From IMG/VR virus record IMGVR_UViG_3300008259_005066, positions 145,519-209,518 of that record: 64,000 bases of DNA. One strand, 5' to 3'. Positions 46,824-58,476 of the stretch are shown piece by piece. The notes under the pieces are model-generated. The model was not told where the DNA came from. It saw only the letters and a list, made by a program, of their open reading frames with translations, and made no database searches. The position numbers and the translations under genes were made by a program. The first letter of the stretch is position 1; the number at the start of each line of letters is the position of its first letter. This DNA comes from a virus.

Positions 46824-46831
46824 TATTTATT
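46824..46831 (-). promoter_or_regulatory. Late promoter AATAAATA, 5 nt from ATG of gp67-like
   Basis: The minus strand reads ATCTAATAAATACTGCCATG: portal stop TAA, promoter octamer and start codon within 20 nt. Leaderless geometry. Confidence 0.6.
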
Positions 46832-48611
46832 AGATAGTGGGCACAGGAGCGGCACCACCGGCAGGTCCTGCGCCAGCTGCGGCAGCGCCAGGAGCACCGG
46901 CCATGCCTGGAGCCATGGGTGCCACAGCACCTTCGGGTGCACCTGCGGCACCTGCGATCTCTTCACCAGCTGTGATGTCTGCTTCGATATCAGCAGGGCT
47001 GATGCCTACTGAACGCAGATCTTGACCACCTTGCGTGCTCAGTTCGGGTTGATCTCGCTCTTCTTTCCATAGTTTTTCGTTGTCTGCAATCTCTTCTTCA
47101 GACAGTCCAAGATAGCGTTTCATCAGGAATCTCTTGCTCAAATAGGGCAACTGTTCTAGCCCGCTGAACGCTGTCATCCGTGTGGTGTCCAGTTCAGCCT
47201 GGCGATAACTGGCAAAATTCTGTGGCGGTGCAAACTTGATATTGAACAGGCCAGAGTCAATGTTGAAACCTCTCCAGCGCAGGAACATCTTGAACTCGTC
47301 ATCCAGTTTCTGCACGATCTGACGTTGCATACGCTCGCAGTATTGATTGAAACGATATTCCTGTATCAGCGCAGTGCCCACACGCCCGTCATTCATAGGG
47401 CGATCAGAATCATCTGGCCCAGTGGGTAGATATGATGACGGCACACGCAGACCGCGGCACATCTTGTTGTTGAAATATTTTAAGTCGTCGATCTCGCCTA
47501 GATTCTGTCCGCCTTGCAGGGTAGTAACATCCGAGCCACGACCTTCGGCTGTGACCGGAAAGAAGTAGTCTTCGTTGATTGACAGCGGATTGTATGTGGT
47601 ATCCATGATATTTTCACGACCACCTGTATTAGACGGAATACGTCGCTGATGGATTTCATTTTTCACACGTTCCACGAACTGCATGGCCAAATGGCTGGGC
47701 ATGTTGCCCACATCAATTTTGAATATCCTGCGTTCTGGCGCACGAGATATGCGATAGATCAGGATAGCATCTTCCAGCAATTCTTTTTGCTTGAATACCT
47801 TGAATATCATCTCCAGCACTGACTGTCCAAATGGCCAATAGTAGTCCAAACCTTCGCTCAGGCTGAGATGCACCACGTGCTTGGCATCGATGCAGGTTTC
47901 GTTCACAGAACGCTGGAATCGACTCTGTCCTGACGAGTTAGGAGCATTGGGTGCTGTGTAGTTGTAGGGTGCTGAATACCCACCCGATGGTGGCTGTGTG
48001 TTGTAGTCATTGATGGTCTTGGCCGCCACTGACATGGATTGGAAATTGGGATTGATGTCTCGGATCACATACTGTTCAGGACGCTTGCCTTCGCTTTCGT
48101 TCACGATCACACGGGCCACTTTGGTCATATCCACCCAGTAGAGTTCAAAGGTTTCAGGATCACGCACAAACACTTGATCGCCATACTTCAGAGTATTGCG
48201 GAACATCTTGAACATGCGATTGTCAAACTTGTTGAGTTTGGTCCATTGCTGGAGCTGTTTCTTGATGATGTCTACTTCGTGCTCAGTGGGTGTTTCTGTG
48301 AAACCTATTTCAAAAGGTGTGTCGTTGGCCTCACAGGTCTGTGTGGAAAATTCGGCTAGGATGTCAAGGCAGGCATTGATTTCCGAATCGCCATCCATGT
48401 TCTCGTATTGATTGTAGCGTTCCATCCTGTTGGGATGGCCAGTGTAGACCTCTGGCAGTCTGCTGGCATAGTTGCGGAAGGCAAATTCCGCATGGGCTTT
48501 GTCGTCTACACCGTAGCCTGTGCCATAACTGGGACCGCGTGGAACCTGCCCCGAAATTGGGCTGAACTGTCCTGAAACATCAGCGACTTTAAAATATTTT
48601 TTCCATGACAT
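46830..48611 (-). CDS. 20: Portal protein gp20
   Basis: 593 residues from the ATG at 48611 (MSWKKYFKVADVSGQFSPIS); a longer frame upstream crosses the promoter and the tape-measure stop. Portal signatures: NQYENMDGDSEINACLDILA, YFNNKMCRGLRVPSSYLPTG and LKYGDQVFVRDPETFELYWV. The C-terminal 90 residues are Gly/Ala/Pro-rich (PGMAGAPGAAAAGAGPAG). The portal forms the dodecameric vertex ring, starts prohead assembly and docks the terminase. It heads the T4-ordered block 20-67-68-21-22-23. Confidence 0.95.
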   Translation of the reverse strand: MSWKKYFKVADVSGQFSPISGQVPRGPSYGTGYGVDDKAHAEFAFRNYASRLPEVYTGHPNRMERYNQYENMDGDSEINACLDILAEFSTQTCEANDTPFEIGFTETPTEHEVDIIKKQLQQWTKLNKFDNRMFKMFRNTLKYGDQVFVRDPETFELYWVDMTKVARVIVNESEGKRPEQYVIRDINPNFQSMSVAAKTINDYNTQPPSGGYSAPYNYTAPNAPNSSGQSRFQRSVNETCIDAKHVVHLSLSEGLDYYWPFGQSVLEMIFKVFKQKELLEDAILIYRISRAPERRIFKIDVGNMPSHLAMQFVERVKNEIHQRRIPSNTGGRENIMDTTYNPLSINEDYFFPVTAEGRGSDVTTLQGGQNLGEIDDLKYFNNKMCRGLRVPSSYLPTGPDDSDRPMNDGRVGTALIQEYRFNQYCERMQRQIVQKLDDEFKMFLRWRGFNIDSGLFNIKFAPPQNFASYRQAELDTTRMTAFSGLEQLPYLSKRFLMKRYLGLSEEEIADNEKLWKEERDQPELSTQGGQDLRSVGISPADIEADITAGEEIAGAAGAPEGAVAPMAPGMAGAPGAAAAGAGPAGGAAPVPTI

Positions 48612-48618
48612 AGTGTTA

Positions 48619-48626
48619 TATTTACC
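48619..48626 (-). promoter_or_regulatory. Late promoter GGTAAATA, 7 nt from ATG of gp20
   Basis: GGTAAATA, spacer TAACACT, ATG at 48611. It lies just after the tape measure stop at 48631. Confidence 0.6.
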
Positions 48627-48630
48627 GCTA

Positions 48631-51009
48631 TCAGCGGGTTGCTGACAGTAACTTGCGAGATATGTCCACGTTGTTCTGTAGCAGACCAATCATGGTATCA
48701 AATCGGCTCAACTGCTCGCCCATCATGGTCACTTGTTGGCCCATGGTGTCAGTCATGCCAGTCATCTCTACCGGTATGGATCTGCCGCCAGCCAGGGGAA
48801 CCACTGCTTCTGTGCCGTGTAGCATGGCCGCATATCCCGACTTTGGACCAGATGCTATGCCACCATATTGGAAATTCCCTACCTTGCTGGGTTCTATGCC
48901 CAGCGCCTGGGCCACAGCAAACTGTATGCCCCCGCGCATGTTGTAACCTTTTTCCAGACCGCCCATGCTTTCCTTGCCAATGATACCTACCATGAGTTTG
49001 GCCATGGTGGCTGGATCTCTGGGCAGGACTTCATCAGCACCTTTGCCCATGAAGCGGGCCATTTGCTCGATATACAATCTGGTGTCGTTTTCATTGGGCG
49101 GTGCGTAAGCCGAAATGATGCTGGAGATGGTATCTCTTTTGCCACTACGGCTTTTACCTGTCAGGTAAAGATCTAACTGACGGGCCAATGCTACCAGACC
49201 ATCGTCCACAGTTTCAAATTTGGCAAATCCGCCGGTGCCCACTGTGGCTTTGTCCTGGCCTGCAAAACGTAGATTGCCAGGATTGAGATTCTTTGCGGCA
49301 GCACCCATGAGTCCAGCTGATCCTGTCATGGGTGGTTTACCAGGAGGACCACCTGCTGTTCCAGGCGGCCCCGCTCCCTGGGTGCGACTGTAGGAGCCGG
49401 GAGGTGCACCTCTGGTGATACCTGTGCCTAATATTTTGTCCAGTGCGCTGGCACCAGAGGCCAGTGAATCGGTAAACATTCCCACAGCACCTGCCATCTT
49501 GGGAAACTGTTGCACTACCACGCTGTCTATGCCCACTGCAAAATTTCTCAGCGATTTTTGTGCGCCAACCACTGTGTTTGTGAGGTCACTTTGATTGTTC
49601 TTGGCATCTTTTTGCTCTTTACCCACGGCATTTATAGCTTCTGCCGTTCCAAGGATGCCATTGGTCACAAGGCGCATTTCGGCGTATACAGGATCAAAGT
49701 ATGTGCCCAGGCCTCCCACCATGCGTTCCTGCTTGGTACCGCCCATGGTTTCATACGTTGCGGCTGTGGCTTGCCCTAGTCGTTCCATGAACGTGGCTAG
49801 ATCGCCGGTGCGTTCCAAGAAATTGACCAGTTCTGGTCCAGCACCACCAGTGGCCTGGAAGAACAACTGTGCTTCTTTAGTGCCTAGATTGTCAAAGCTG
49901 TCTTTGAAACCTTGGGCCATAGTTTTCAACCCTTTAGCTTCCAACATTGTTGCGGCACCACTGATCGCATCTGCAAATGATTTACCACGTTTACCAGCAT
50001 CAGCCAACACAGCGCCAAATTTCAACTCTCGATTTTGTTGTTCCAACCGAGACGCAACTTCTTGTCGGCTCATGCCTGTGAGTCTGGCCAGTTGATCCAA
50101 TTGCAAGATGTATTCTTTAGACGCATCAGCCAGTGAGCGAGTGTCGCGGAGATTGACTCCTGTCTGGGTGCGCTGATAACTCAGGAACTGTGCTGTGAGA
50201 TCTCGCTGTTCTTCAAAGCCAATTCCCAACTTAAGAAACTGGTCTTCAAATCCTTTGCTGGCCTTGGTGATGTCCACCACTGCTCGCATGCCCTGTGTGA
50301 CCGATCCACCTGCAAGGGCCAGACCTCGGCTGTTCTTGGCAATGACGCGGGCAAAGGAATCCATGCTGAGCCCAGTTTCCAGAGCAGCCTGTTGCAGTCC
50401 TTGGAAACTGTTGCCAGTGACACCACCAATCTTGCTGAGTTCTTGGAAGGCTCCGACCACACGTTGGGTTTCGTCCAACGAGAAGTTCATGAAAGCAGTG
50501 CCTGCGTCTACTACATCTTTACCGTGTGCCTTGATAGCCTTGCCAATCACTGACGTCACTGAACCAAGGCCCATGCCTATCATGCTGGCAATCGCACCCT
50601 TGGGACCCAGCATTATTCCAAATGACGATATGCCCGAAACGGCCTGGCCCAGGGCATCTATGGCAGTGCCCAGTCCACCGGTCATGTTTTTGAGCGCAGT
50701 GCCTGCGGCACCCACTGCTGGTTTTAATGAACGGAAATCTTCGCGATTGTCTCTAGCACCTTGCGCAGCTGATCCCAACCCAGACAACACTGCTCGAGTG
50801 GTGTCTTTGAACTTTTCCATGGCCTCGGCAGCTTTCATGGTCTGCTGGGTATGCTCGTCTTGTGCTTTGGTATTCTCGTCTTGTGCTTTGGTATTGGTAT
50901 TGATGGCCTTGTTGAGTTTGGCCATGGTTTCGGCGCTGTTGCTGCCGCTTTTGCGGAATTCCGCCATGGCCTCTTGCATCATCTTGATTAGTTTTTCTGA
51001 TTCGTCCAT
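48631..51009 (-). CDS. Tape measure protein (gp29 role) with peptidoglycan-hydrolase-like domain
   Basis: 792 residues. The N-terminus is coiled coil (KLIKMMQEAMAEFRKSG, then NTKAQDE repeated). Residues about 85-200 form hydrophobic Gly/Ala helices (GTAIDALGQAVSGISSFGIM). From about 585 a domain with LNPGNLRFAGQDKATVGTGG, FAKFETVDDGLVALARQLDL and PPNENDTRLYIEQMARFMGK resembles the lytic-transglycosylase-like module in phage virion proteins. The end (GGIASGPKSGYAAMLHGTEA, VVPLAGGRSIPVEM) is a hallmark of tape measures. It would set tail length inside the gp19 tube and may open the cell wall. T4 gp29 itself is about 590 residues. It is divergent from gp26. Confidence 0.82.
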   Translation of the reverse strand: MDESEKLIKMMQEAMAEFRKSGSNSAETMAKLNKAINTNTKAQDENTKAQDEHTQQTMKAAEAMEKFKDTTRAVLSGLGSAAQGARDNREDFRSLKPAVGAAGTALKNMTGGLGTAIDALGQAVSGISSFGIMLGPKGAIASMIGMGLGSVTSVIGKAIKAHGKDVVDAGTAFMNFSLDETQRVVGAFQELSKIGGVTGNSFQGLQQAALETGLSMDSFARVIAKNSRGLALAGGSVTQGMRAVVDITKASKGFEDQFLKLGIGFEEQRDLTAQFLSYQRTQTGVNLRDTRSLADASKEYILQLDQLARLTGMSRQEVASRLEQQNRELKFGAVLADAGKRGKSFADAISGAATMLEAKGLKTMAQGFKDSFDNLGTKEAQLFFQATGGAGPELVNFLERTGDLATFMERLGQATAATYETMGGTKQERMVGGLGTYFDPVYAEMRLVTNGILGTAEAINAVGKEQKDAKNNQSDLTNTVVGAQKSLRNFAVGIDSVVVQQFPKMAGAVGMFTDSLASGASALDKILGTGITRGAPPGSYSRTQGAGPPGTAGGPPGKPPMTGSAGLMGAAAKNLNPGNLRFAGQDKATVGTGGFAKFETVDDGLVALARQLDLYLTGKSRSGKRDTISSIISAYAPPNENDTRLYIEQMARFMGKGADEVLPRDPATMAKLMVGIIGKESMGGLEKGYNMRGGIQFAVAQALGIEPSKVGNFQYGGIASGPKSGYAAMLHGTEAVVPLAGGRSIPVEMTGMTDTMGQQVTMMGEQLSRFDTMIGLLQNNVDISRKLLSATR
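50854..50895 (-). repeat. Perfect 21-bp tandem duplication in the tape measure gene
   Basis: Two identical 21-bp copies (50854-50874 and 50875-50895) encode NTKAQDE twice in the N-terminal coiled coil. One added heptad-length unit could lengthen the coil by about one nanometre. Confidence 0.85.
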
Positions 51010-51055: not shown

Positions 51056-51904
51056 ATGCCAGAAACCTCTAATCCGTTACGCAAATTTTTCCGTCAGCCG
51101 GCCATTTACATCCGCCTGCCGTCGGATGGAAACTACTACCCTCAAGGTTCGCTCGAACTGCCCCCAAATCGAGAGCTGCCAGTGTATCCCATGACTGCCA
51201 TCGATGAAATAACTTATCGCACAGCAGATGCATTGTTCAATGGATCAGCATTGGTCAATGTGATCCAGAGTTGCATTCCTGCCATCAAGAACGCATGGCA
51301 TGTTCCGCAGATGGATCTTGACACACTGTTGATCGCTATCCGTATCGCCAGTTATGGACACGAAATGGATTTTGAAAGCAACTGCCCGCACTGCAACAAC
51401 GAGAACTCATTTGGCCTAGATCTCCGACAAGTCTTGGACAACATCAAAGCCGGTGACTACAGCGAATCTATCAAACACGGCGACGTAGAGATATTTTTCC
51501 GGCCGCTGAGTTATGAACAGGCCAACGCCAATTCCATGAAGCAGTTCCAGGATCAGAAAATCCTGGACAGCCTACCAAATTCCGATCTGCCCGAAGAAGA
51601 AAAGATACGCTTGCTCACACAGGCCTTCCAGAAACTCACGGTCATGACTATGTCTGCCCTGAGCGGTGTGATCTCCATGATCCGTGCCGATGGTGAAATA
51701 GTGGTGGAACCCGAACACATAGAAGAGTTTGTTCAAAACTGCGACAGAGAGATCTTCAACTCCATACGTGATCATGCCACACAACTGCGTGAGCACAGCG
51801 AACTCAAACCCTTGAGACTCAAATGCAACGGGCCAGAATGCCAGAAAGAATACGAAACACCATTCACCCTGGATGTCTCAAATTTTTTCGTATCCGCCTC
51901 CTGA
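51056..51904 (+). CDS. 26: Baseplate hub subunit / assembly factor gp26-like
   Basis: 282 residues. PLRKFFRQPAIYIRLPSDGN then LPVYPMTAIDEITYRTADAL and FNGSALVNVIQSCIPAIKNA are the T4 baseplate (gp26-type) family pattern. A zinc-ribbon-like pair is visible: CPHCNN (about residue 110) and CNGPEC (about 259). gp26 takes part in assembling the baseplate hub around the tape measure. The last codons contain a T-TTT-TTC heptamer at 51883-51889, in frame, 13 nt before the stop. The gp51-like frame continues from there, suggesting a -1 frameshift product. Confidence 0.82.
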   Translation: MPETSNPLRKFFRQPAIYIRLPSDGNYYPQGSLELPPNRELPVYPMTAIDEITYRTADALFNGSALVNVIQSCIPAIKNAWHVPQMDLDTLLIAIRIASYGHEMDFESNCPHCNNENSFGLDLRQVLDNIKAGDYSESIKHGDVEIFFRPLSYEQANANSMKQFQDQKILDSLPNSDLPEEEKIRLLTQAFQKLTVMTMSALSGVISMIRADGEIVVEPEHIEEFVQNCDREIFNSIRDHATQLREHSELKPLRLKCNGPECQKEYETPFTLDVSNFFVSAS

Positions 51905-52119
51905 CCTCGAGTCCTGAGCGCATCACCAAAATAGTAGAAGGATATGATCGTGAAGTCAAAGCAATCAAAGACGACATATTCAAGATGTGTTGGTATATGC
52001 GAGGAGGCCTGACCTATGAAGAAGCACTCAATCTCAGTTTTGGTGAGCGAGAATCTGTGGGTGCATTGATCAAAGAAAATCTCGAGACCACTAAAAAAAC
52101 CGGAATGGCATTCTTCTAA
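51838..52119 (+). CDS. 51: gp51-like baseplate hub assembly protein, possibly made as a gp26 frameshift fusion
   Basis: The conserved part starts about 51890 (FFRIRLLTSSPERITKIVEG) and runs through DIFKMCWYMRGGLTYEEALN, LSFGERESVGALIKENLETT to KKTGMAFF. I recall this small protein following gp26 in aquatic T4-like phages, the place of T4 gene 51. The only ATG upstream (51838) lies within gp26, adds about 17 residues that look like shadow sequence, and has no ribosome binding site. The frame is exactly -1 relative to gp26. Either internal initiation or frameshifting produces it. The stop overlaps the next ATG (TAATG). Confidence 0.7.
   Translation: MPERIRNTIHPGCLKFFRIRLLTSSPERITKIVEGYDREVKAIKDDIFKMCWYMRGGLTYEEALNLSFGERESVGALIKENLETTKKTGMAFF
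51883..51889 (+). promoter_or_regulatory. Candidate -1 ribosomal frameshift heptamer TTTTTTC
   Basis: T-TTT-TTC in the gp26 reading frame (codons AAT TTT TTC) fits X-XXY-YYZ. A tandem -1 slip reads on into the gp51-like frame (CGT ATC CGC...). I saw no strong downstream stem or pseudoknot. Confidence 0.5.
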
Positions 52120-52622: not shown

Positions 52623-53059
52623 CCTATCAATTTGCCCGTATCAATCTAGCAAAAACCAATTATCAAGCATCAGCCCAGTGGGGATATCTCATACCTACCG
52701 AACAGCAAATGGTGGAACTTGACAATATCTATAGAACTTACTGTATCTATAAGCATTTCAGTAGTGTGATACCCATGTTTCGAAGCCGATATACCGATCC
52801 AATGACTGACGTCATTGGATATTTTGATCAAGAACGCATGGTAGCATTCAGTCTCATACGAAGGTATGACGACAAAAATGCTCTCTGTGATCAATTTGCA
52901 TGGACATATCATGATCCGCAATCAAGATTGGGCATTGAAACCATGAAAACAGAATGTGCCATATACAAAGCAAGGGGCTTTGATTATCTCTATCTCGAGC
53001 AGGCACATCTTTACAAAAAAGAGATAGAAGGATTTGAAATACTAGGACCAATGACATGA
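52619..53059 (+). CDS. Unknown protein, possibly GNAT-like
   Basis: 146 residues, starting MTYQFARINLAKTNYQASAQ. VIGYFDQERMVAFSLIRRYD then FAWTYHDPQSRLGIETMKTE and YKARGFDYLYLEQAHLYKKE resemble the strand-helix order of GNAT acetyltransferases, but the Q/RxxGxG/A loop is not evident, so catalysis is doubtful. It overlaps both neighbours by 4 nt (ATGA). Part of the gp26 operon. Confidence 0.55.
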   Translation: MTYQFARINLAKTNYQASAQWGYLIPTEQQMVELDNIYRTYCIYKHFSSVIPMFRSRYTDPMTDVIGYFDQERMVAFSLIRRYDDKNALCDQFAWTYHDPQSRLGIETMKTECAIYKARGFDYLYLEQAHLYKKEIEGFEILGPMT

Positions 53060-53391
53060 GCGACTTATACACGATATGGGCAGACAAAGAAGGTGATATC
53101 TCAGACCTTGATTGGGTCACAGGAATGCGAAGTTTTTTTGAGCACCTGATGTCTGAGGGCAAGATGATGAGTTATAGGATAACCCGTTGCAAGATGGGAT
53201 TCCGTTCAATCGCAGACATGCCCGAATGGATGATCATCATGGAGTTTAAAGACATGGCACAGATGGACTCAGCATTTCGTCGTGTGGCGCCATTGGAAGG
53301 CGAACTCGAAGAAAAACACAAAAGTTTCAATCAGTTTGTTTCGGGCAACATCCAGCACGCACTGTTCCGTGATTGGCCTGATCAGTTCTAA
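53056..53391 (+). CDS. DUF6614-like small protein
   Basis: 111 residues. MSDLYTIWADKEGDISDLDW, YRITRCKMGFRSIADMPEWM and MAQMDSAFRRVAPLEGELEE, then HALFRDWPDQF, fit what I recall of the DUF6614 family, a dimeric ferredoxin-like fold of unknown role also found in marine bacteria. No catalytic motif known. Last gene of the gp26 operon before the noncoding region. Host-derived origin is possible. Confidence 0.65.
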   Translation: MSDLYTIWADKEGDISDLDWVTGMRSFFEHLMSEGKMMSYRITRCKMGFRSIADMPEWMIIMEFKDMAQMDSAFRRVAPLEGELEEKHKSFNQFVSGNIQHALFRDWPDQF

Positions 53392-53824: not shown

Positions 53825-54265
53825 CTAGCCTTGACTGCTTAGTTTGCCTTTGATGTGACTGCCATGCACACGGACCTGTATGTGTCCGTTGTAATAGTCA
53901 TCACTTTCTAATACACGTCGGGAGAATTGTTCGCGAGCCTCTATGTAACTGCATTCCGATTTGGATTGGCAGTAATACAGTATTTCACGTGAGAAGTTTT
54001 CGGTGCCTAGCAGTTCAACATCTCGAGATAACTCCGGAGAACTGCCATAATATGTCTGCCAATCTGAATCTATCGCGCCTCTGATTTTTTTGCGTTTCTT
54101 TTTGCCATTTTTGAGTTTGACTACTCGATATGTTGTTTTCTTGAACTTTGCTAATTTTTTGCCAATATACTGCCGGCCGGTAAGTTTATTGGTGATCAAA
54201 TAAACAAACCCGACACACGTTTCGGGTAACTCTGTGATTTCTCGGGATTCGAAAAGCCATGACAT
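53825..54265 (-). CDS. SegE-like GIY-YIG endonuclease
   Basis: 146 residues from the ATG at 54265 (MSWLFESREITELPETCVGF). GFVYLITNKLTGRQYIGKKL carries the GIY-YIG-type core in the variant form VYL...YIG. This is followed by a Lys-rich LKNGKKKRKKIRGAIDSDWQ and YYGSSPELSRDVELL, EILYYCQSKSECSYIEAREQ with the catalytic Glu. The family occurs widely in T4-like phages as free-standing nucleases, often homing enzymes. An in-frame GTG at 54271 would add two residues. It is the last gene of the minus-strand replication operon. Confidence 0.8.
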   Translation of the reverse strand: MSWLFESREITELPETCVGFVYLITNKLTGRQYIGKKLAKFKKTTYRVVKLKNGKKKRKKIRGAIDSDWQTYYGSSPELSRDVELLGTENFSREILYYCQSKSECSYIEAREQFSRRVLESDDYYNGHIQVRVHGSHIKGKLSSQG

Positions 54266-54282
54266 GAGCACATAATTATCAA

Positions 54283-54603
54283 TTATTTCTCAGATATAGA
54301 AATATCACGTTTTCCAATCAAAAGATCGTCGGTACAACCTGTGCATCGATTCCGTCGACAGATTCCGGGAGCATCAAACGGGCTCCATTCTTTGAAAAGA
54401 TTGCCCAAGCGATCGTTTTGACAAACTGCGCTGTAGACGTTGAAATCCTTGTCTATATCCAATCGACGATAACCTGCATCGCAACTCCATCCTGACCAAT
54501 GATCTAAATCGTTATTGTGCATCCAGTTGGCACTGACCTTGAACGATCTCCCATCTGACAGTTCTATTTCACAGTTATAGTATTGATGATTTTCAAATTC
54601 CAA
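54283..54603 (-). CDS. SPASM/twitch-like C-terminal part of a split radical SAM gene
   Basis: 106 codons from a TTG, in a different frame from the upstream radical SAM gene and overlapping its end by 11 nt. WSGWSCDAGYRRLDIDKDFN, AVCQNDRLGNLF and ICRRNRCTGC give a CxxG...C...CxxC set fitting auxiliary iron-sulfur cluster ligands. Such a domain is normally the C-terminal half of the same polypeptide. I read this as the displaced end of the gene at 54593-55216. No ribosome binding site supports an independent start. Confidence 0.6.
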   Translation of the reverse strand: MEFENHQYYNCEIELSDGRSFKVSANWMHNNDLDHWSGWSCDAGYRRLDIDKDFNVYSAVCQNDRLGNLFKEWSPFDAPGICRRNRCTGCTDDLLIGKRDISISEK

Positions 54604-55216
54604 GATTCAATTTTCCTTTGAATATGGGCACGGTGCGAGTCTGATAGGAATAATCTATCTTGTTCACAGTGTAGCTGATGTCGTGATGTTCTAGCAGATT
54701 GATATACAACGGAATACGATCTTGATTCCAGTATTCATCCATGATAGCGACCTGCAAGAATTTATCAGGTGAGATACTTTTCTTAAGTTGTATGATCATG
54801 TCAAAAAATTTCTCTTCATTGATGTGTTCCGAATGCACACTGAATGCGATGTTGTCTAACGCTTGGAACATTTTCTGATAATACTTGAGATTGGCGCTGC
54901 CATTGGTGGTAGCCAGCAATTTGAATATGTGCTGATCATATTCCTTCCGCAACCAAGTGACAAACGGTAGAAAGTGTTTGTTTGAAGTGAGTTCTCCACC
55001 GGTAAATGCGATCTTATAGGGTAGATTTTGTTTGCTGGTCTTTTCAAATATGTTTAACCAAGCCTGTTTCATAGTGTCAAGATCATGATGCTGGCTATGA
55101 TCATCATGCCACATGGGAGAACAATACATGCAATCATAGTTGCAACGCACAGCCAATTGCCAATTGATGCTGAAGTATTGTTCGGTAGGTGTGACTCGTA
55201 TGATCCGGGATGTCAT
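54593..55216 (-). CDS. Radical SAM enzyme (N-terminal catalytic part)
   Basis: 207 codons. The CxxxCxxC motif CNYDCMYC (about residues 27-34) binds the SAM-cleaving 4Fe-4S cluster. KIAFTGGELTSNKHFLPFVT is the GGE motif for SAM binding, and NIAFSVHSEH a later barrel strand. The substrate is unknown. The chain stops after VPIFKGKLNLGI, where related proteins would go on into a cysteine-rich C-terminal domain, present in another frame just downstream. The start overlaps the gp46 stop (ATGA). Confidence 0.85.
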   Translation of the reverse strand: MTSRIIRVTPTEQYFSINWQLAVRCNYDCMYCSPMWHDDHSQHHDLDTMKQAWLNIFEKTSKQNLPYKIAFTGGELTSNKHFLPFVTWLRKEYDQHIFKLLATTNGSANLKYYQKMFQALDNIAFSVHSEHINEEKFFDMIIQLKKSISPDKFLQVAIMDEYWNQDRIPLYINLLEHHDISYTVNKIDYSYQTRTVPIFKGKLNLGI

Positions 55217-56985: not shown

Positions 56986-58476
56986 TTACATATATCTCAT
57001 GGCTTTTGCAATCTCAGAGTGACTTGCTGAAAAACTTTCACTTCGAACCTGATCAAAATATTGCATTTTAGATTGAAACTTCTTGCCATCACTGTCAGGC
57101 AAATTTTGTATTATCTTAATAACATTTTGGATTTCATTCCAGGGGTGATCTTGAAACTTGTCAATAATAATTTTTTTGGCTTCTTTTGTAAGATCCTGTA
57201 GCTCCATTCCTTCACCTTGCACATGGTTAACAAATATAGGAAAACCATGTTTGCAAGCCCAGTCGTAGACTTGGTCTATGTAGTAAACGCTCATGACACT
57301 GATAGTGGGCATGATACTAATAGACAGGTTGGGTAACTGTAAATCTTTGAGCCTTAGTATGTTGTCCTCAACTTCAGACCACTGACCGCCTCTTTGTAGT
57401 TCAAAATGTGAACCAACAGCATCAATACTAAAATGTATGTCTACCAGTTTAAAACTAGGCCAAACAGGTAGCAAATGATTGGGCCAAATGGATCCGTTGC
57501 TGTTGTAGTGTAATCTAATGTCCTTGGCGTAGTCTTTTTCAACTGCCATCTCCAACACCGATTTAAAACGTTTAATCAAAAACGGCTCGCCGCCAAACAT
57601 GTCAATATTTTTTATGTCAGGCAAGTACGTTAGAACTTGATCAATAAAATCTTGACTCTCCCCCCAAGCATCTTGTACAACTAACTTAGATCCGCGGAAC
57701 TTTTGATCTTCAAGGGCAAACAACGAGCTGTTTCCACCGTTACATATCCTGCATTTGAAATTACAGGTGTTATTAAACTTCAAATCTAATGTAGCTACTC
57801 TTGGTTGATCAAGATATTTGGTTAAAAATTCTCTCTTTAAATGCTTGACATTGTGCAGTCTAATAGAAGTTAGATTTTTTTCTTCCACTTTCCAGCAGTT
57901 GTCGCACTCTTTTGGTTTTTCTCCAGCCAATAAACTAGCCCTTAACTTTTGTAGTTTTTCGTCATGGAACGCTTGATCTAGTTTGATACGGTTGACGTTA
58001 CCAAGATCAAGATTGTTCATGCAACAAGGAGTAATAGTTCCGTTTTGTGTTATCTGTAAGTTGTGCCAGGGTATAGAACAAATAGTATCGGGTAAATTAA
58101 AGTTGTTTTCAATCTTGTGTGTTTGTTTGTCTAACTCAACTGGGTGGAACCAAATTGGAACAGAGTCAAGTGAAAACTTTTTACAACACGACAACACGTC
58201 GTGCTCAATTTCTTTTGGCCCACATATCATTATGAACCAGTTGCTGATATCTATAAAATTGATAGTTTCGTAAAAGAACTGTAGAAAACTCTCAGGAATA
58301 AAATGTGAAGTGTAAAAAACCAACCGATCGTTTGTCTCGTAACTAGTTTGGTAAACACTGTCTAGTAGCTTAAACAACTCCGTGGGGCCGGTTGACAGCT
58401 TGCCAAGATCGTGAATTACTTTGACGTTGTGGGTTGACTTTAGTTGGTGTTCTAACTCTAGGGTGGAAATAATCAT
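56986..58476 (-). CDS. Radical SAM protein with N-terminal twitch-like cysteine domain
   Basis: 496 residues. After an unknown N-terminal 130 residues, CSIPWHNLQITQNGTITPCC (about 133-152) and CDNCWKVEE form a twitch/SPASM-like auxiliary cluster site ahead of the catalytic CNFKCRICNGG (CxxxCxxC, about 237-244). MFGGEPFLIKRF is the GGE motif and VDIHFSIDAVG a barrel strand. Proteins of this layout occur in aquatic phages and bacteria; none has a substrate I can name. It starts inside the gp47 stop (ATGA) and sits 9 nt before gp46, so it is co-expressed with the recombination nuclease. Confidence 0.85.
   Translation of the reverse strand: MIISTLELEHQLKSTHNVKVIHDLGKLSTGPTELFKLLDSVYQTSYETNDRLVFYTSHFIPESFLQFFYETINFIDISNWFIMICGPKEIEHDVLSCCKKFSLDSVPIWFHPVELDKQTHKIENNFNLPDTICSIPWHNLQITQNGTITPCCMNNLDLGNVNRIKLDQAFHDEKLQKLRASLLAGEKPKECDNCWKVEEKNLTSIRLHNVKHLKREFLTKYLDQPRVATLDLKFNNTCNFKCRICNGGNSSLFALEDQKFRGSKLVVQDAWGESQDFIDQVLTYLPDIKNIDMFGGEPFLIKRFKSVLEMAVEKDYAKDIRLHYNSNGSIWPNHLLPVWPSFKLVDIHFSIDAVGSHFELQRGGQWSEVEDNILRLKDLQLPNLSISIMPTISVMSVYYIDQVYDWACKHGFPIFVNHVQGEGMELQDLTKEAKKIIIDKFQDHPWNEIQNVIKIIQNLPDSDGKKFQSKMQYFDQVRSESFSASHSEIAKAMRYM

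Follow-up and report, generated by a model that had tools for sequence, protein, structure and literature searches.

A conserved slippery heptamer and a probable -1 frameshift at the end of a gp26-like phage gene

INTRODUCTION

Does the open reading frame that overlaps the end of a gp26-like gene in virus record IMGVR_UViG_3300008259_005066 encode a protein of its own, or is it the second part of a longer protein reached by a -1 shift of the ribosome? The record is 209,518 bases long and the stretch analysed here, referred to as the window, comprises 64,000 nucleotides (positions 145,519 to 209,518 of the record). A preliminary description of the window drew attention to a T-TTT-TTC heptamer in the last codons of the gp26-like gene and proposed that it joins this gene to a 'gp51-like' frame in the manner of the tail assembly chaperones of phage lambda (G/GT). 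The lambda G/GT mechanism (PMC5009743) is also the basis of our functional reading.

The principle of frameshifting in the T4-like chaperone family is already published in outline (Vladimirov, Gautam and Davidson 2022, Virology 566:9–15), as cited in two later papers. According to the PRFect paper (PMC10885494), which cites this work, some T4-like phages do not frameshift but carry one short gene and one longer, fused gene; the Adele paper (PMC12846349) refers to it as the source for polyT slip signals in the chaperone genes of T4-like phages. What is added here is the clade of jumbo and pelagic phages and evidence for a downstream RNA stem with a shifting 3' arm, an RNA element that is possibly new and has weak support in the window itself.

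RESULTS

Layout of the locus

The gp26-like gene begins at ATG 51056 and ends at a TGA stop at 51902–51904. The heptamer was confirmed at 51883–51889 in the register AAT-TTT-TTC of the gp26 codons, followed by GTA TCC GCC TCC TGA, and the extension frame is exactly -1 relative to gp26, as had been described. From the slip site the -1 frame runs open to a TAA at 52117–52119, reads FFRIRLLTSSPERITKIVEGYD... and gives an extension of 76–77 residues (76 beyond the Phe-Phe at the slip site, and the stop). The features of the locus are as follows.

46830..48689, minus strand: portal protein (gp20), PF07230, E 5e-104
48631..51009, minus strand: divergent neighbour, probable tape measure protein, 792 aa, weak similarities
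51056..51904, plus strand: gp26-like baseplate hub protein or tail assembly chaperone, short form, 282 aa (PF12322, phrog_150, AlphaFold)
51883..51889, plus strand: slippery heptamer T TTT TTC, in the gp26 frame and kept in relatives
51889..52119, plus strand: -1 frame C-terminal extension ('T' part), open frame conserved from the heptamer on
51896..51902, plus strand: candidate stimulator stem, 5' arm GCCTCCT, 6 nt past the heptamer, 130-nt fold
51902..51904, plus strand: gp26 0-frame stop codon, 12 nt past the heptamer
52002..52008, plus strand: candidate stimulator stem, 3' arm AGGAGGC, pairing with 51896–51902 (MFE fold, duplexfold)

The gp26-like protein matched the PF12322 T4_baseplate family (E 5.2e-15, 56 bits against a cut-off of 24.5) and PHROG 150, baseplate hub (phrog_150, E 3e-17). 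A profile search of the virus record found this single PF12322 gene. The AlphaFold model of gp26 had a pLDDT of 87 and its top structural match was the model of a T4-like baseplate hub assembly protein. No solved structure in the PDB, including any solved chaperone, was matched at E ≤ 0.001, and a profile search of the PDB sequences with gp26 gave nothing; the chaperone family is very divergent so that a missing PDB match is weak evidence, and the HK97 gp13 fold is typical of the family without strictly defining it. The extension had no convincing family in Pfam and PHROG searches. Its model was a helical hairpin (pLDDT 88) with no meaningful match in a fold search against the PDB.

The divergent neighbour had no Pfam match. 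It was weakly similar to phrog_14121 and to the protein adjacent to gp26 in phage Phosso (E 1e-4), and the annotation of its counterpart in phage RaK2 notes similarity to a tape measure protein. The gene beside the gp26 locus of Atu_ph07 is a different one. The neighbour had been called the tape measure; the weak similarities and the RaK2 annotation make this plausible and probable.

Conservation of the slip site

The string TTTTTTC occurs 14 times in the window where 10.3 ± 3.3 are expected, and 17 of 100 shuffled sequences reached 14. The string by itself is not above chance, therefore conservation had to decide, and the significance attached to the heptamer rests on its position and its conservation among aligned loci. 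A search of IMG/VR with the extension found at least 579 relatives, and all 80 loci kept for analysis had TTTTTTC with the same frame relation. Since a search with the extension could favour the slip site, a second search was made using a gp26 alignment with patterns in the body of gp26, independent of the slip site. The heptamer was again present in 80 of the 80 IMG/VR relatives found, and in 79 of 80 further cyanophage-type loci.

Finished genomes gave the same picture. Slip site and frame were present in all ten cultured jumbo myoviruses (Phosso, Atu_ph07, BF, PA5oct, 121Q, CBB, Vibrio 2.275.O, GAP32, RaK2 and XbC2), and TTTTTTC was found in S-SM2, P-SSM2, Syn9, S-PM2, KVP40, Aeh1 and PhiW-14 of the T4-like clade. 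Together these make 17 of 19 cultured relatives; in the remaining pair, phiM12 and HTVC008M, the site reads T TTT TTT. Most of the jumbo phages examined share the gene order portal, structural protein, gp26, extension. A blastn search of phages with the locus gave no match and genome contigs (prophages) searched with gp26 contained no relative.

Removal of loci at least 80% identical left a nonredundant set of 87, in which all seven columns of the heptamer had zero entropy. Positions 0, 3 and 6 of the heptamer are wobble positions of gp26 and were invariant as T, T and C, a combination (T|TTT|TTC) that codon use predicts at about 7% of Phe-Phe loci. In the same 87 loci the variable codon position followed the gp26 frame upstream and the -1 frame downstream, with the switch exactly at the heptamer, which upholds the claim that the conserved part of the extension begins there. 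The loci share kinship, therefore no overall probability is claimed. The 0-frame stop lay at +12 in 73 loci and at +3 in 14. No Shine-Dalgarno-like stimulator was found in the 20 nt or less upstream of the slip site in any of the 87.

The one exception among the cyanophage-type loci, contig L255 (1501–2370), carries gp26 and the extension in one continuous frame; TTTTTGG replaces the usual TTTTTTCGG and the downstream hairpin sequence is kept. It may be a natural fusion or a sequencing error. In Rhodothermus phage RM378 (around 2010–2260), whose gp26 homologue ends in seven T, it is the +1 (or -2) frame and not the -1 frame that holds the likely extension; this suggests that a different shift operates in the lineage.

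Several database records treat the extension differently from the arrangement described here. Those of PA5oct and RaK2 have no annotated extension, and those of Atu_ph07, BF, CBB and GAP32 begin it at an internal codon. In such public jumbo-phage records, where the extension is absent or begins at an internal ATG, its conserved first part is lost from the annotation.

RNA structure downstream of the slip site

RNA from +12 to +92 folded better than shuffled sequences (mean z -1.78, 87 loci) and windows further down did not. Consensus folding with a fixed register yielded next to nothing for the downstream RNA, since the position of the 3' arm varies: it was found at different codons by lineage, around +61–74, +68–83, +84–96 and +107–128. 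Arm-swap and synonymous recoding tests were used instead. A 5' arm near +8 to +27 paired more strongly with downstream sequence from its own locus (mean -18.0 kcal/mol) than with sequence swapped in from other loci (mean -16.0 kcal/mol; z -7.4), where eight control arms gave z values from -2.3 to +1.0. Its own pairing also exceeded that of synonymous recodings, with a mean z of -1.2 where the control arms lay between -0.3 and +0.1. By these comparisons the 5' arm is under selection in the clade, whereas in the window alone it does not reach significance. The cyanophage loci have a compact hairpin, +12 to +21 with +33 to +42 (mean z -3.7, 13 loci), whose stem contains one compensatory pair.

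In the window itself support for a stem is weak. The candidate GCCUCCU/AGGAGGC stem has 7 bp and a long loop and closes a 130-nt fold with z -1.69, and it does not beat synonymous recoding, most recodings pairing as well or better. Downstream folding had been proposed as a check; it gave a stem signal across the clade but little in the window. On balance we favour, with some reserve, a stem that drives the slip in the pelagic clade and probably in the jumbo phages, its 5' arm fixed about 6 nt past the heptamer and its 3' arm rebuilt in different lineages. If so, the stem would act as a recoding stimulator of constant geometry whose pairing partner is repeatedly replaced. A selected RNA stem would also offer a concrete target for frameshift assays.

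Start codons and alternative readings

The extension might instead be a small gene of its own, translated past the gp26 stop through coupling or reinitiation, with the T run merely coding for Phe-Phe. Several phages do have an ATG near the gp26 stop and records annotate the extension as its own gene; in the cyanophage loci an ATG lies five codons past the slip site in 76 of 79, and judged from the sequence reinitiation there would be possible. However, when the nonredundant relatives were scanned as far as +24, beginning at the preceding -1 stop or at the limit of the 60 nt taken upstream, 62 of 87 had no ATG, GTG or TTG, and the annotated starts fall at varying places and cut off conserved sequence. 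In the window the -1 frame has just two start codons ahead of the slip, ATG 51823 and ATG 51838; both are within gp26 and unconserved, and neither has a strong Shine-Dalgarno on inspection, so the statement that the extension lacks a convincing start or ribosome binding site stands. Phe-Phe coding needs none of the three frozen wobble positions, and in RaK2 and PA5oct the frame is conserved where no gene is annotated. A separate gene is thus improbable.

Slippage of RNA polymerase within the T run, with the long form arising from mixed transcripts and not at the ribosome, appears slightly less probable still. Transcriptional slippage can occur on six to eight consecutive T and HTVC008M has eight, but the typical site is six T and an invariant C in the tandem -1 register X XXY YYZ; this, with the selection on the downstream RNA arm, fits slipping of the ribosome better. 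An in-frame fusion broken by a sequencing or assembly error could have appealed to L255, where both parts are read in one frame; given that the same frame relation is common to over two hundred other contigs and to finished genomes of cultured phages, L255 is the outlier and this explanation can be regarded as already refuted by the comparative data. The locus is very probably one tail assembly chaperone gene of the lambda G/GT type, giving short and long forms by a -1 frameshift.

Comparison with T4 gp26 and gp51

Both T4 gp26 (208 aa) and T4 gp51 (249 aa) matched PF12322 over its full length, and gp51 is a gp26-like domain plus about 48 C-terminal residues; by this profile comparison they are paralogues. 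Among 13 phages checked PF12322 was present once in 12 relatives and twice in T4 only, where 26 and 51 are two genes transcribed in divergent directions. In the gp26 tree the window and the jumbo phages form one group (99/99), separate from the clade of T4 and the cyanophages. The T4 duplication cannot be dated from this tree, since both T4 rows sit on long branches.

The gp51 tail of T4 aligned with the cyanophage extensions. The window-type extension did not match the cyanophage and T4 extensions significantly when compared directly (hhalign probability 2.6%); jumbo-phage intermediates gave a weak link (probability 49.9%, E 1.7e-4), and a core motif around L/M-x-x-x-E-R is common to the window-type extension and the gp51 tail. 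The term 'gp51-like' holds for the C-terminal extension only, since T4 gp51 is a full gp26 paralogue plus an extension. Cyanophage gp51 has been reported to be without its first ~200 residues (Sullivan et al. 2010, PMC3037559), which is how a frameshifted extension would be expected to look. As frameshift sites are present in both clades, jumbo/window and T4-like/cyanophage, the comparison suggests that the frameshift is ancestral and the two-gene layout of T4 derived. T4-like phages had been predicted to join the same scheme, an idea already in print; relatives in the T4-like clade do have the site, while T4 itself has separate genes and does not frameshift here.

DISCUSSION

From the layout and its conservation we infer that frameshifting does occur, that the short form predominates and that the products act as chaperones. 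The majority of ribosomes would read gp26 to its own stop and produce the short form. A minority would slip back one base on T TTT TTC, by the same logic as in the decoding of lambda gpG/gpGT, and produce the long form, gp26 with the 76-residue helical extension. In many relatives an RNA stem starting about 6 nt downstream would probably promote the slip. By analogy with lambda, the short form may coat the tape measure protein, the extension may recruit tail tube subunits, and both forms would probably leave before the tail is completed. In the T-even phages the frameshift would have been lost in favour of two paralogous genes, 26 (short) and 51 (long).

The likeness to the tail assembly chaperone layout pointed out in the preliminary description is borne out by the -1 overlap and the invariant heptamer. 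Like gpG/gpGT, the window locus would give short and long forms from a -1 slip site near the end of the first frame, beside a probable tape measure gene. No sequence or fold relation to gpG/gpGT was detected, the heptamer is U UUU UUC and gp26 has putative zinc-binding cysteine pairs. Counting against our reading, the gp26 gene diverges from the probable tape measure gene, unlike in lambda, and does not precede it on the same strand. With the T4-like proteins the window locus shares the PF12322 family and a short form alongside a longer, C-terminally extended one; it differs in being one gene with a probable -1 shift where T4 has two separate divergent genes, and in belonging to the separate clade of the jumbo phages. 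The chaperone loci of Pakpunavirus (phage Adele) and Andersonviridae (PMC12846349) also have an invariant T-rich slip site and a -1 extension that is routinely missed or mis-annotated, although their motif is GTTTTT and the phage families are different.

If this reading is right, a decoding event that is essential in lambda also takes place in a large clade of mostly uncultured phages, as well as in jumbo phages with finished genomes, in whose records the extension is left out or wrongly started. T4 gp26 and gp51, long called hub factors with contradictory roles and listed among the hub assembly chaperones of T4 (PMC3004832), could then be read as the short and long forms of one chaperone.

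Some other genes near the locus may be mentioned. A DUF6614 protein (PF20319, E 1e-21) is encoded downstream of the extension at 53056–53391 of the window, and a SegE-type GIY-YIG endonuclease (PF19835, E 1e-32) at 53825–54271 on the minus strand. Two proteins of radical SAM type are encoded on the minus strand at 54593–55216 and 56986–58476, the second with a SPASM domain, and a gp46-like SMC/AAA recombination endonuclease sits between them. The radical SAM pair is unusual cargo for a tail and recombination region.
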